Source of the DNA: Hyphomicrobiales bacterium
Lineage (GTDB): Bacteria > Pseudomonadota > Alphaproteobacteria > Rhizobiales > Xanthobacteraceae
Length of the DNA: 44,820 bases
Reading direction: 5' to 3'
Assembly (NCBI GenBank): GCA_019075925.1
Contig: JAGXAC010000005.1
Location: forward strand, 1 to 44,820
Shown: positions 6,604 through 25,550 of the stretch, one piece after another
How positions within the stretch are numbered: the first letter of the stretch is position 1
Layout: every line of letters starts with the position of its first letter
The notes under the pieces: model-generated
The model's input: the letters and a program-made list of their open reading frames with translations, nothing else
The model's database searches: none
What the model was told of the DNA's origin: nothing
Made by a program: the position numbers and the translations under genes

Positions 6604-6650
6604 CGGCGCCGACCTTCGGCGCCCGCCAACTCCGTCGTCATAGCCAACGA

Positions 6651-6679
6651 AAAAGCCCCGAGCGGTCTCGGGGCTTTTT
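6651..6679. terminator. Bidirectional intrinsic terminator
   Basis: A perfect 12-base stem, AAAAGCCCCGAG (6651-6662) with CTCGGGGCTTTT (6667-6678), closes a four-base loop. The A-run on one side and T-run on the other let it end transcripts in both directions. It lies between the GST gene (plus) and the outer-membrane protein gene (minus), exactly where a shared terminator is expected. Confidence 0.9.
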
Positions 6680-21676: not shown

Positions 21677-22612
21677 TTAACCTGCCGCTCTTTGCACGCG
21701 GCTCCTGGCCGCGGCGATGACTTCCGGAATCGCCGCATCGTTGCCCGGCGCCATGATGTGGACGCCGGCGATGCCGGGAATGGTGGCGAGTTCCTCGATC
21801 AGTTCGACGCAGATGCGGATGCCCTCGCTCGCCGGATCGGCCGACTTTTCCATGCGCTCAATCATCGCGTCGGGGATGACGGTGCCGAACAGGTGGCTCT
21901 TCATCCATTGCGCCGATTTCGCCGAGCGCAGCGGATTAACGCCGATGATCATGGCGAGGTGTTCGGTCAGTCCGGCACGCTTGAGCGCTTCGCAATAGCG
22001 GCGGAGCAGCGCCGTATCCATGCAAAACTGGGTTTGCGCAAAGCGGGCGCCGGCGGCGACCTTGGCTTGCAGGCCGCTCGGCTTCCAGTCCGGCGGCGGG
22101 TCAATCGGCATATCGGCGGCACCGAGGAAAAACGGCGCCTTGCCGCTGACTTCACGTCCCGTCGGCAGCGTTCCTTCGTCGCGCAACCGGCGCGCGGTCG
22201 CCAGCAGCGTCGCCGAATCGACGTCGAATACGGGTTTGGTGTCGGGCTGATCGCCGGCTTTCGGATTGTCGCCGGTCAGCACCAGGATGTTGTTGATGCC
22301 GAGCGCGGCCGCCCCCATCAGCTCGCTTTGCAGGGCGATGCGGTTCTTGTCGCGGCAGGTCATCTGCAAAATCGGCTCGATCCCTGCGCCAAGCAAAATC
22401 GTCGCCGCGGCGAGCGCGCTCATGTGAGCGCGCGCGCCGGCGCCGTCGGTCAGGTTGACCGCGTCGGCGAGGCCGTGCAGCGGCGTGGCCTTGCGCAGCA
22501 GGTCCTGGGCGTCGCAGGACACCGGCGGAGCGACTTCGGCGGTCATGACAAACCGGCCCGCCCGCAACCGTTCGGCGAAAGTGCGGGGAAGGGGGGTCGT
22601 TGCATCAAGCAT
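21677..22612 (-). CDS. Methylenetetrahydrofolate reductase family protein (MetF-like)
   Basis: 311 residues from ATG 22612. It shows the flavin TIM-barrel pattern of MTHFR: TAEVAPPVSCDAQDLLRKA, DAVNLTDGAGARAHMS, PILQMTCRDKNRIALQSEL, GINNILVLTGDNP and a C-terminal GVHIMAPGND. These enzymes reduce 5,10-methylene-tetrahydrofolate to the 5-methyl form for methionine synthesis, or run related C1 steps. Sequence details such as the Pro-rich segment DMPIDPPPDWKPSG differ from E. coli MetF, so this may be one of several MetF paralogues rather than the housekeeping one. It is divergent from alaS, with the inverted-repeat region in between. Confidence 0.87.
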   Translation of the reverse strand: MLDATTPLPRTFAERLRAGRFVMTAEVAPPVSCDAQDLLRKATPLHGLADAVNLTDGAGARAHMSALAAATILLGAGIEPILQMTCRDKNRIALQSELMGAAALGINNILVLTGDNPKAGDQPDTKPVFDVDSATLLATARRLRDEGTLPTGREVSGKAPFFLGAADMPIDPPPDWKPSGLQAKVAAGARFAQTQFCMDTALLRRYCEALKRAGLTEHLAMIIGVNPLRSAKSAQWMKSHLFGTVIPDAMIERMEKSADPASEGIRICVELIEELATIPGIAGVHIMAPGNDAAIPEVIAAARSRVQRAAG

Positions 22613-22697
22613 GGCGGAACTCGGCAGGCACGCTTCGCAGACAGAGCGCTTATATGGTTTGCCGGCCCCCTGCAATTGCGTGTTTGGCCGTGTACCG

Positions 22698-22787
22698 CTA
22701 GAGAGTGCGGCTGGTGCGGTGGATTTGAAGTTCCTCCCGTTCAGCCGCGAACTTAACGAGGAACTTCAAATCCTAAAAACGCACTAG
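22698..22787. repeat. Large inverted repeat A, metF-alaS gap
   Basis: Arms GGATTTGAAGTTCCTC (22721-22736) and GAGGAACTTCAAATCC (22758-22773) are an exact 16-base match around a 21-base loop. Beyond them an imperfect outer stem links AGTGCG (22704-22709) with CGCACT (22780-22785), and both flanks carry CTAG (22698-22701, 22784-22787). It lacks a T-tract and is not in terminator position. It resembles a dispersed palindromic element or a structured leader. It is related in sequence to repeat B. Confidence 0.75.
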
Positions 22788-22813
22788 AATTATGAACTTG
22801 CCAGCTTTCCTTT

Positions 22814-22865
22814 GATTCCGAAGTTCGCATCAGAGGGCCGGATAGGACGTGCGAACTTCGGAATC
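22814..22865. repeat. Large inverted repeat B, immediately before alaS
   Basis: Arms GATTCCGAAGTTCGCA (22814-22829) and TGCGAACTTCGGAATC (22850-22865) are an exact 16-base match around a 20-base loop. The right arm ends nine bases before the alaS ATG, so in RNA the hairpin would sit where the ribosome loads. Its arms share the GATT..GAAGTTC core with repeat A, 93 bases upstream. Regulatory use is inference. Confidence 0.78.
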
Positions 22866-22874
22866 GGGCACCAG

Positions 22875-25550
22875 ATGAGCGGCGTCAACGATATCCGGTC
22901 GAAGTTTCTCGGCTTTTTCGCGCGCGAAGGGCACGAAATCGTGCCTTCGTCGCCGCTGGTGCCGCGCAACGATCCGACCTTGATGTTCACCAACGCCGGC
23001 ATGGTGCAATTCAAGAATGTCTTCACCGGCCTGGAAAAGCGCCCCTACAACCGCGCCACCACGGCGCAGAAATGCGTCCGTGCCGGCGGCAAGCACAACG
23101 ATCTGGACAATGTCGGCTACACCGCGCGGCACCACACCTTCTTCGAGATGCTCGGCAATTTCTCGTTCGGCGATTATTTCAAGGAGCGCGCGATCGAGTT
23201 GGCCTGGAAGCTGGTAACGAAAGAATACGGCGTCCCCGCCGAGAAGTTGCTGGTCACCGTCTTTATCGACGACGATGAAGCGTTCAATTTGTGGAAGAAA
23301 ATTGCCGGCCTGTCCGGCAACAGGATTTTGCGCATCGCCGGCAGCGACAACTTCTGGAGCATGGGCGACACCGGGCCGTGCGGTCCGTGCGCGGAAATTT
23401 TCTACGACCACGGCGACCATATTCCCGGTGGCCCGCCGGGCAGTTCCGATGCCGACGGCGACCGCTTTGTCGAAATCTGGAATCTGGTCTTCATGCAGTA
23501 CGAGCAGCTTCCCGGAGGCGGTGCGCGGATCGATCTGCCGCGGCCGTCGATCGACACCGGCATGGGTCTCGAGCGGATGGCGGCGGTGCTGCAAGGCACC
23601 CACGACAACTACAAGATCGATCTGTTCGGCGCGCTGATCGAGGCGATCGCGGACCTGACCGGCGTCGATTCCGACGGCGACCGCCGGGTGTCGCATCGCG
23701 TCATTGCCGATCATCTGCGCGCCAGCGCGTTCCTGATCGCCGATGGCGTGCTGCCGTCCAACGAAGGCCGCGGCTATGTGCTTCGACGCATCATGCGCCG
23801 CGCCATGCGGCACGCCGAGTTGCTTGGCGCCAAGGATCCGCTGATGTGGCGTCTGGTGCCGGTGCTGATCCGCGAGATGGGGCAGGCCTATCCGGAACTG
23901 CACCGCGCCGAAGGCTTGATGACGGAGACGCTCAAGCTTGAAGAAATCCGTTTCCGCAAGACGCTTGAGCGGGGCCTTGCGATCCTCGACGAGCAAAGCA
24001 AGCATTTGAAACGCGGTGACATGTTCGATGGCGTCACCGCCTTCACGCTCTACGATACGTATGGTTTTCCGCTCGATCTCACCCAGGACGCACTCAAGCC
24101 GCGCGGCGTCGGTGTCGATATCGCATCGTTCACCGACGCGATGGAGGAACAGCGCAAGAAGGCGCGCGCGTCATGGGCCGGTTCGGGCGAAGCCGCCGAC
24201 GAGGCGGTATGGTTCGGGTTGCGCGAAAAATTCGGCGGTACCGATTTCCTCGGCTATGAAACCGAAACCGCCGCCGGCGCGGTCGTTGCGCTGGTGCGCG
24301 ACGGCAAGGAAGTCGTGGAGCTGAAAAAGGGCGAGTCCGGAGCGGTCGTCCTCAACCAGACACCGTTCTATGCCGAATCCGGCGGCCAGATCGGCGACAC
24401 CGGTGTGATGAGCGGCGAGGGAGTGCGCTTCGTCGTCACCGACACGCAAAAGCGCGCCGGCGACCTGTTCGTGCATCTCGGCAAGGTCGAGGAGGGCACT
24501 CTCAAGACCGGCGCCGCGCTTGAGCTTAAGGTCGAGCATGCCCGGCGCGGCGCGATCAGAAAAAATCATTCGGCGACGCACCTATTGCACGAAGCGCTGC
24601 GCCAGGTGCTTGGCGATCACGTGGCGCAAAAGGGCTCGCTGGTCGCGCCGGATCGCCTGCGGTTCGATTTCTCGCATCCGAAGCCGATGACGGACGCGGA
24701 AATCGAACGCGTCGAGGATATCGCCAACGATATCGTGCTGCAAAACGCTCCGGTGATTACCCGTCTGCTGAGCCGTGACGATGCCATCGCCTCCGGCGCG
24801 CGGGCGCTGTTCGGCGAGAAATATGGCGACGAAGTGCGTGTCGTCGCCATGGGCGAGGGCAGCGGCAACGCGATGGGCTGGTCGGTCGAGCTGTGCGGCG
24901 GCACTCATGTCGGCCGCACCGGCGATATCGGCCTTATCTCCGTGGTCGGCGAATCCGCAGTCGGCTCGGGCGTTCGGCGCATCGAAGCGTTGACCGCGCA
25001 GGCCGCGCGCGCCAGCGCCAACCATTTCGCCCGGCTTGCCAAGGCGAGCGCGTCTGAATTGCGGGTGCCGGTTGGCGATCTGCCGGGGCGGATCGCAGCG
25101 CTTCTTGACGAGCGCAAAAAGCTCGAACGCGAACTATCGGATGCAAAGAAAAAACTCGCGATGGGTGGCGGTCAGTCCGCCGATGGTGATGAAGGGGTGG
25201 AGACAATCGGCGGCATCAAGGTCATGGCCAAAACACTGAGCGGCGTCGACGCCAAGGATTTGCGCGGCCTCGCCGACGAAGGAAAGAAAAAGCTCGGCTC
25301 GGGCATTGTCGTCCTTATCGCCAACGACGCGGAAGGAAAGGCTGCTCTGGTGGTCGGCGTTACCGGCGACCTCACCGGCGCCAACGACGCGGTGCAGATG
25401 GTGAAGGCGGGCGTCGCTGAACTCGGCGGCAAAGGCGGCGGTGGACGTCCGGATATGGCCCAGGGCGGTGGTCCGAACGGAGCTGCCGCTCAGGCGGCGC
25501 TCGTCGCCATCAAAAAATTGATCAAGCCCGCCGTGTCTGCCGGCGCCTGA
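22875..25550 (+). CDS. alaS: Alanine-tRNA ligase
   Basis: 891 residues from ATG 22875, where the standard start [15 protein letters not shown] begins; 21 upstream codons encoded by the inverted repeat are excluded. The class II aminoacylation core shows [17 protein letters not shown] and [20 protein letters not shown], with [13 protein letters not shown] as motif 3. The editing domain carries the zinc/editing residues in [12 protein letters not shown] and [12 protein letters not shown]. The C-terminal C-Ala domain has a coiled coil ([18 protein letters not shown]) and a Gly-rich [16 protein letters not shown]. It charges tRNA-Ala and clears Ser/Gly mischarging. E. coli AlaRS is known to repress its own gene by binding a palindrome, which makes the inverted repeat at its start notable. 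Confidence 0.98.

Follow-up and report, generated by a model that had tools for sequence, protein, structure and literature searches.

The Element Upstream of alaS

Two strong palindromes stand directly before the start codon of an alaS gene, which raises the question whether they control that gene or are one copy of a repeat that also lies in other places. In the window (the whole stretch of DNA analyzed, 44,820 bp) they are the only perfect 16-bp inverted repeats with loops of 3-40 nt, and 200 first-order Markov sequences of the same length contained none in total. Repeat A (arms 22721-22736 and 22758-22773) has a loop of 21 nt and repeat B (arms 22814-22829 and 22850-22865) one of 20 nt. 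Both lie where the initial annotation had placed them, and its further details held as well: 93 bases between the arm starts of A and B, a shared core GATT..GAAGTTC (GATTTGAAGTTC in A, GATTCCGAAGTTC in B) and nine bases between arm B and the alaS ATG at 22875.

The two repeats are the inner parts of longer imperfect palindromes, which form the two halves of one 164-bp element. Its boundaries were derived from the alignment of 63 copies, which can be aligned over the unit and have unrelated flanks, and from the empty alaS leaders of relatives. The unit first proposed, 22698-22865, captured the double hairpin and missed its limits: the true unit is 22711-22874, of which the last nine bases (GGGCACCAG, 22866-22874) had been omitted, and 13 bases of native leader (22698-22710) had been taken in. 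The features of the locus are:

21677-22612, minus strand: divergent neighbour, methylenetetrahydrofolate reductase-like ('metF'; NF006396 201.4 bits, TIGR00676 69.8 bits, both below cut-off)
22699-22704, plus strand: TAGAGA, candidate -10 box of the native alaS promoter (possible -35 box TTGCGT at 22676-22681)
22711-22874, plus strand: whole element, very probably a twin-palindrome MITE; outer ends CTGGTG ... CACCAG, abutting the alaS ATG
22711-22787, plus strand: module A, a palindrome (covariance model 56.4 bits, E 1.4e-11)
22711-22720 with 22778-22787: outer helix of module A (inner arms 22721-22736 and 22758-22773)
22774-22777: extra bases TAAA of module A, on its inner side
22788-22800, plus strand: A/T-rich linker of 13 nt, AATTATGAACTTG, between modules A and B
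22801-22874, minus strand: module B, in opposite orientation (covariance model 46.2 bits, E 4.2e-9, minus strand)
22814-22829 with 22850-22865: inner arms of module B (extra TTT at 22811-22813 on the inner side; outer arm 22866-22874)
22875-25550, plus strand: alaS, alanine--tRNA ligase (TIGR00344, 944.9 bits, cut-off 457)

At 164 bp the element has no coding capacity of its own, and the open frames that cross it belong to its neighbours or to no known gene. Rfam gave four weak matches, all far below the gathering scores. Upstream, the alaS frame continues without a stop across module B as far as a TTG at 22812 (window 22812-22874), and a 21-residue AlaRS extension made from element sequence would be possible in principle. 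Elsewhere in the window, an inverted repeat at 6650-6679 (AAAAAGCCCCGAG/CTCGGGGCTTTTT), perfect over 13 bp with a loop of 4 nt and accompanied by an A/T run, looks like an intrinsic terminator.

Dispersal Across Genomes

A BLAST search with 22698-22875 gave seven matches at six places in G000, the genome of the window, with copies upstream of alaS, rpsA, ilvC (49 nt from its ATG) and greA; the identities of rpsA, ilvC and greA were confirmed by NCBIfam. Matches were present in 16 of 41 genomes, G000 counted, and six of these had more than 20 each. With no more than 60 candidates scored per genome, a covariance model built for a single module found matches in 46 of 80 family genomes; its 42 matches in G000 correspond to 21 to 42 modules, as a palindromic module can match on both strands. 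In a sample of 121 genomes from the order, the same model matched 14, of which 12 belong to families other than that of the window. The exact palindrome of module B was found in at least 120 stretches in a scan of named genomes. Carriers among the matches listed include Nitrobacter vulgaris Ab1, Nitrobacter sp., Bradyrhizobium MAGs, Pseudolabrys, Rhodoplanes piscinae, Hyphomicrobium sp. CS1BSMeth3 and Xanthobacteraceae MAGs. Most of the carriers are incomplete MAGs (G000 is 88% complete), and no match to the element was found in the plasmid collection.

These results support that the hairpins at alaS are one copy of a dispersed 164-bp repeat. The initial annotation was to be given up if the genome held no further copies and the arms were not conserved at this locus; since other copies exist, those grounds do not apply.

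Twin-Palindrome Build and Covariation of the Stems

The loci fetched for module finding contained 357 distinct modules, and the same finder returned none in 818,037 bases of shuffled DNA. The consensus module is about 76 nt long (74-79 nt in 351 of 357) with CTAG at both ends. One arm is the longer: extra bases, mostly T or A, separate its outer 9-10 bp from its inner 15-16 bp; the offsets of the two arms differ by 2-5 in 349 of the 357 modules. Linkers of 11-15 nt join 147 pairs of modules, of which 138 are facing pairs with the longer arms turned inward; the linker measures 12-14 nt in 143 and 13 nt in 95 of the 147. With the seven matches in G000 and the 16 carriers among 41 genomes, this supports the suggestion of the initial annotation that the locus holds a dispersed palindromic element with a double-hairpin unit. 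At 19 further joints two modules share a single CTAG, and nested arrangements such as A3>[-4]B>[12]A2<[13]B2< look like one composite inserted into the CTAG of another. Most of the 57 single modules have, by eye, a decayed or truncated partner, and a few seem truly single. In other families of the order, the module model R1, which was built from single modules, detected plus-minus neighbours 13-16 nt apart (at least 37 by eye).

The subfamilies differ in their stems with compensating changes. In 34 divergent modules, 98.2% of the pairings at the 25 pair positions of both helices are standard, against 79.2% in shuffles, and both sides have changed in 21 of the 25 against 12.5 in shuffles; sliding the arms by one column lowers pairing to 37-42%. 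Likewise, 75 distinct inner-arm pairs are Watson-Crick at 94.3% of positions compared with 65.5% when the arms are re-dealt, and the inner arms include 21 distinct perfect 15-mer stems (three of the 357 modules, with equal arm offsets or N, and 11 more with no recognised core were omitted from this analysis). The percentages of paired bases are inflated because the module finder relied on palindromic shape and CTAG-like ends; the diversity of complementary stems is not due to shape-based finding alone, and the covariation between subfamilies and the 63 copies found by BLAST are less touched by this bias.

IS630-Family Elements as the Probable Source of the Ends

The contig G000:C185 carries a 1.2-kb insertion sequence (IS) with an IS630-family transposase (NF033545, 268.6 bits, cut-off 100; DDE_3), whose ends are TAGTGTCGCGTCTCTGAAATTTC and, on the right, TAGTGTCCTGATTCTGAAGTTTC. 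Several IS630-family transposases lie between CTAGTG-type ends of this kind, and relatives of the G000:C185 transposase at E <= 1e-40 occur in 28 of 198 genomes, G000 counted. The outer arm of module B (TAGTGTCCCGATTCCGAAGTTCGC) matches seven IS ends from G050, G089, G161 and G097 at 18-21 of 24 positions, whereas the longer inner B arm, with its TTT, matches the same ends at only 8-11 of 24. For the two G000 ends the best outer arm gives 17 and 19 of 24 and the inner B arm 11 and 12. Among the 22 hand-picked IS ends compared, 18 (from subgroups related to G000) match the best outer arm at 16-21 of 24, a level that 2000 shuffles of the 19 bases past TAGTG reach in a fraction of 0 to 0.003 (uncorrected, best of five arms); the four more distant IS630 ends score 10-15 of 24, with shuffle fractions of 0.03-0.49. 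A second IS group, with a protein 45-50% identical, has ends such as TAGTGGATCGCGTCTGACATTTG, which are nearest to the A3 and B2 module subfamilies (16-18 of 24). Spacing as in genuine IS630 ends is thus preserved in the outer arms only.

No IS with ends identical to those of the element was found among the 22 compared, the best being 21 of 24. At E <= 1e-40 the G000 transposase has no relative in the carriers G001, G003, G004, G008, G017 and G021, of which G004, G017 and G021 do contain other IS630 matches. IS630 matches are absent from the carriers G005 and G012, and G013 shows a single one at 3.7e-4. An all-against-all comparison of 3,973 ORFs near modules gave no transposase cluster evident by eye among the clusters listed.

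Dispersal, boundaries, composite grammar, stem covariation, the resemblance of the ends to IS630 ends and the target preference (see below) were all observed, and in our view the feature very probably represents a copy of a non-autonomous IS630/Tc1-mariner-type transposable element (MITE). Like the IS630 family (IS630, ISY100; Tc1/mariner superfamily), it has a TA target within CTAG, CTAGTG-type ends and terminal repeats of about 24 bp that are in register with its outer arms, and a transposase of this family (NF033545, DDE_3) is encoded in G000. Unlike these, it is a geneless element of 164 bp with four arms instead of two, the inner two being shifted by extra bases.

The mobile unit would be the stretch of about 164 bp in which two CTAG-bounded palindromic modules face each other across a linker of 11-15 nt, and the outermost 24 bp or so on each side would serve as its terminal inverted repeats. 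As judged from the ends, an IS630-family transposase made elsewhere may bind these repeats and excise the unit in trans, and reinsertion at the TA of a CTAG site would duplicate the TA. In the inner arms the CTAGTG end and the binding core are mostly separated by 2-5 additional bases, which shifts these arms out of register with IS630 ends and probably out of use. It would follow that the outer pair, and hence the whole double hairpin, is the unit that moves.

Target Site and Genomic Placement

Most IS copies whose ends could be located are flanked by C-TA-G, the end finder (TAGTG/CACTA) giving no end pair in 8 of 30 loci. At L390 a copy has a G on one side, which fits duplication of TA rather than of CTAG. 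Composites are nested in, or joined at, one shared or duplicated CTAG, and the empty rpsA and alaS sites of relatives agree with a CTAG target and a TA duplication. IS630 reportedly inserts into the TA of CTAG (Tenzen and Ohtsubo 1991, cited in PMC2170065). For ISY100, the available part of the published description gives a duplicated TA and 24-bp repeats (PMC2170065). The target preference of the element and of the IS copies agrees with both. The copy in the window has CTGG and CCAG in place of the two terminal CTAGs, and a target duplication of this copy is therefore not directly readable.

CTAG is scarce: 850,529 bp contain 349 sites outside elements, where 2,885 would be expected; 89 of the 349 are inside predicted genes and 32 at gene stops. 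The rarity of CTAG within genes directs insertions to intergenic sites, in many cases onto a C-TAG stop that the insertion restores. Gene calls from a simple codon-usage script allowed 90 of 114 chains to be classified by their neighbours, and none of these 90 copies has most of its length in a predicted gene. In 33 of 114 copies (loci L096-L215) the TAG of the terminal CTAG is the stop of a neighbouring predicted frame, part of which may be chance read-through because one frame in three meets this TAG. The neighbours of the 90 copies are oriented much as at element-free gaps: 59 tandem, 16 convergent and 15 divergent against 257, 74 and 98.

Possible Maintenance After Insertion

Copies spread by transposition could since have become domesticated as RNA or DNA structures, kept for a function in double-hairpin leaders or 3' ends. 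The copy in the rpsA leader bears on this most directly. It is common to G000 (L411), G003 (L412) and G004 (L421), and it lies immediately upstream of the GGAGT ribosome-binding site, which is left intact. Another 13 genomes of the genus gave an rpsA hit, and their rpsA leaders lack the copy (in G013 a composite is found at another position of the rpsA locus). In the three genome pairs, differences (gaps omitted) number 3, 5 and 2 among 110 arm sites and 7, 7 and 8 among 43 loop sites; the 5' flank has 13 in 149, 39 in 150 and 35 in 149. The p values are 0.0055, 0.038 and 0.00065 for arms versus loops and 0.066, 3.1e-6 and 1.3e-7 for arms versus flank, in a comparison of one locus by three non-independent pairs. 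This slower divergence of the arms speaks for such a function, as do the positions of G000 copies before alaS, rpsA, ilvC and greA and the predicted fold of the alaS leader (-79.5 kcal/mol against -54.2 +/- 4.1 for shuffles, z -6.2). However, it was seen at a single shared locus, with the arm-flank contrast not significant for G000 and G003 (p 0.066); template-switch repair of quasi-palindromes or gene conversion could likewise keep arms complementary, and neighbour orientation is similar between copies and element-free gaps. Selection, gene conversion or template-switch repair could each explain the slow arm divergence, and we regard domestication as rather unlikely.

A further reading, also on the unlikely side, is that the palindromes keep themselves perfect after insertion or are kept so, while loops and flanks drift and changes copied into both arms give rise to subfamilies. 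The element would then be a self-correcting or selected double hairpin that provides leaders and stops to housekeeping genes of Hyphomicrobiales, the extra bases of the inner arms locking the pair as a mobile unit.

Other Candidate Mobilisers

Other transposases could in principle have moved the element. Firstly, small palindromes of the REP/BIME type are moved by RAYT, a Y1 tyrosine transposase. Facing intergenic pairs of palindromes with a linker, sometimes in tandem, do resemble the BIMEs and REP dimers described in the accessible part of PMC3733652, and Y1_Tnp matches are found in the carriers G014 (five), G021 (three), G017 (one) and G006 (one below cut-off). However, none is found in the carriers G000, G004, G005, G011, G012 and G013, and G010 has seven and yet no copy of the element. 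By the definition given in that part of the same source, a REP is a unit of 20-40 bp with a GTAG or CGTC tag (PMC3733652), whereas the modules measure about 76 bp, have neither tag, have CTAG at both sides and match IS630 in their ends. A RAYT mobiliser is disfavoured by its absence from six carriers, though present in four others, and appears highly improbable.

Secondly, another CTAG-targeting family, IS481 or IS5, might be responsible, which we likewise hold to be very doubtful. G000 has one genuine IS481 transposase over the cut-off (G000:C94, 276 bits), but the ends beside it (TGTTCAGTCCCGAAGTGAGG) agree with the arms in 10 of 20 positions at most and G000 alone of 25 genomes has a match over the cut-off; we rejected IS481 on this single gene and its ill-fitting ends. 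An IS5-type element in G011 (C231, L336) is inserted exactly at the CTAG of a copy, but its ends (AACCTATCTCAAAATTGCC) are by eye unlike the arms; it was rejected as an element that lands in the CTAG and has different ends. It sits in the CTAG between the linker and module B, and such repeats can thus be landing sites for other CTAG-targeting elements. An IS630-family transposase remains the preferred mobiliser.

The alaS Leader

The element lies between TAGAGA and the alaS ATG, and this hexamer may be the promoter box; a consensus scan at the locus gave no sigma-70-like site, promoter or terminator. Most empty leaders of the same genus (G002, G005, G007, G008, G010, G015, G017, G019) read TAGAGAGT, then 8-9 nt, then ATG; G004 has a longer spacer, and G012 and G016 have a variant box. 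The G000 leader reads TAGAGAGTGCGG, then the element, then ATG, and GCGG plus a four-base target would restore the usual spacer of 8 nt. If the -10 box is TAGAGA, the native message would start within a few bases of the ATG, and the insertion would have turned a very short leader into one of 160 nt with a double hairpin. As the copy lies between this putative promoter and the ATG, the alaS mRNA probably starts with two hairpins, and a side effect of the element on alaS expression is possible. A box TTTCCTGGACAGGAAAGC, or a close variant, is found upstream of TAGAGAGT in G010, G007, G017, G005 and others and is not visible in G000 and G019; it may be part of the native alaS promoter or operator.

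The 30 alaS loci fetched, out of 37 genomes with an alaS match, contain module matches in two, G000 and G021; three of the 28 loci with no match cover about 100 bp of leader or less, and the one from G014 covers only 5 bp. The leader of G019, by eye the most similar to that of the window, is empty. In G021, of another genus, L257 (G021:C41) has composites at 2411-2575 and 2734-2900 upstream of alaS, of which the nearest has the opposite module order and ends 13 nt before the ATG. Since position and module order differ, the insertions in G000 and G021 are independent.

Alanyl-tRNA synthetase of Escherichia coli represses its own gene, and the palindromes might accordingly be a control element such as an AlaRS autorepression site, as the initial annotation had offered for its second choice. 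The last base of the element does adjoin the ATG, and G021 has its own composite 13 nt before alaS, but an operator conserved at alaS does not fit two independent insertions in 30 loci with reversed module order, 28 loci with no module match and copies before rpsA, ilvC, greA and many unrelated sites, and we consider this reading scarcely credible. The dispersed mobile element thus remains the preferred explanation for the hairpins at alaS.

Relation to Known Repeats and Significance

RIME repeats have a two-palindrome structure. The RIME and Sm repeats of Sinorhizobium, compared by description only, are like the element in that they form an intergenic palindrome mosaic in a rhizobium (PMC2245857, in the part available). 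The bacterial MITEs RUP, NEMIS and Nezha, as presented in the accessible text of PMC3733652, are also short, non-coding, intergenic and high in copy number and have terminal repeats; the element differs from these in consisting of two full palindromic modules, opposed across a fixed linker, with compensating stem differences between subfamilies. The GTAG and CGTC REPs and Br-REP1 and Br-REP2 of Bradyrhizobium share with it palindromic structure, intergenic position, facing dimers and the same bacterial families, again as far as the available parts describe them (PMC3733652, PMC5082802), but are 20-40 bp long against modules of about 76 bp, which have no GTAG or CGTC tag. Against 189 modules, Br-REP1 and Br-REP2 reached at best 13 of 20 and 22 of 40, near the means of 11.9 and 19.7 obtained with shuffled patterns on 60 modules. 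In the literature searched, mostly open-access and in part only as partial text, an earlier description of the element was not found, which is weak evidence of novelty. The element is of a known kind, an IS630-family MITE, with an unusual build of two facing palindromes, asymmetric arms and covarying stems, and it is widespread.

A large and apparently unnamed family of mobile repeats thus adjoins essential genes in many soil and nitrifying bacteria. Through their matching ends, palindromic repeats of a kind often called REP are linked to a known transposase family. The scarcity of CTAG in genes, together with insertions that would restore TAG stops, suggests a simple rule by which genes are spared. 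Lastly, a natural experiment on how such structures act on a gene is offered by the strong double hairpins before the start codons of alaS and rpsA.
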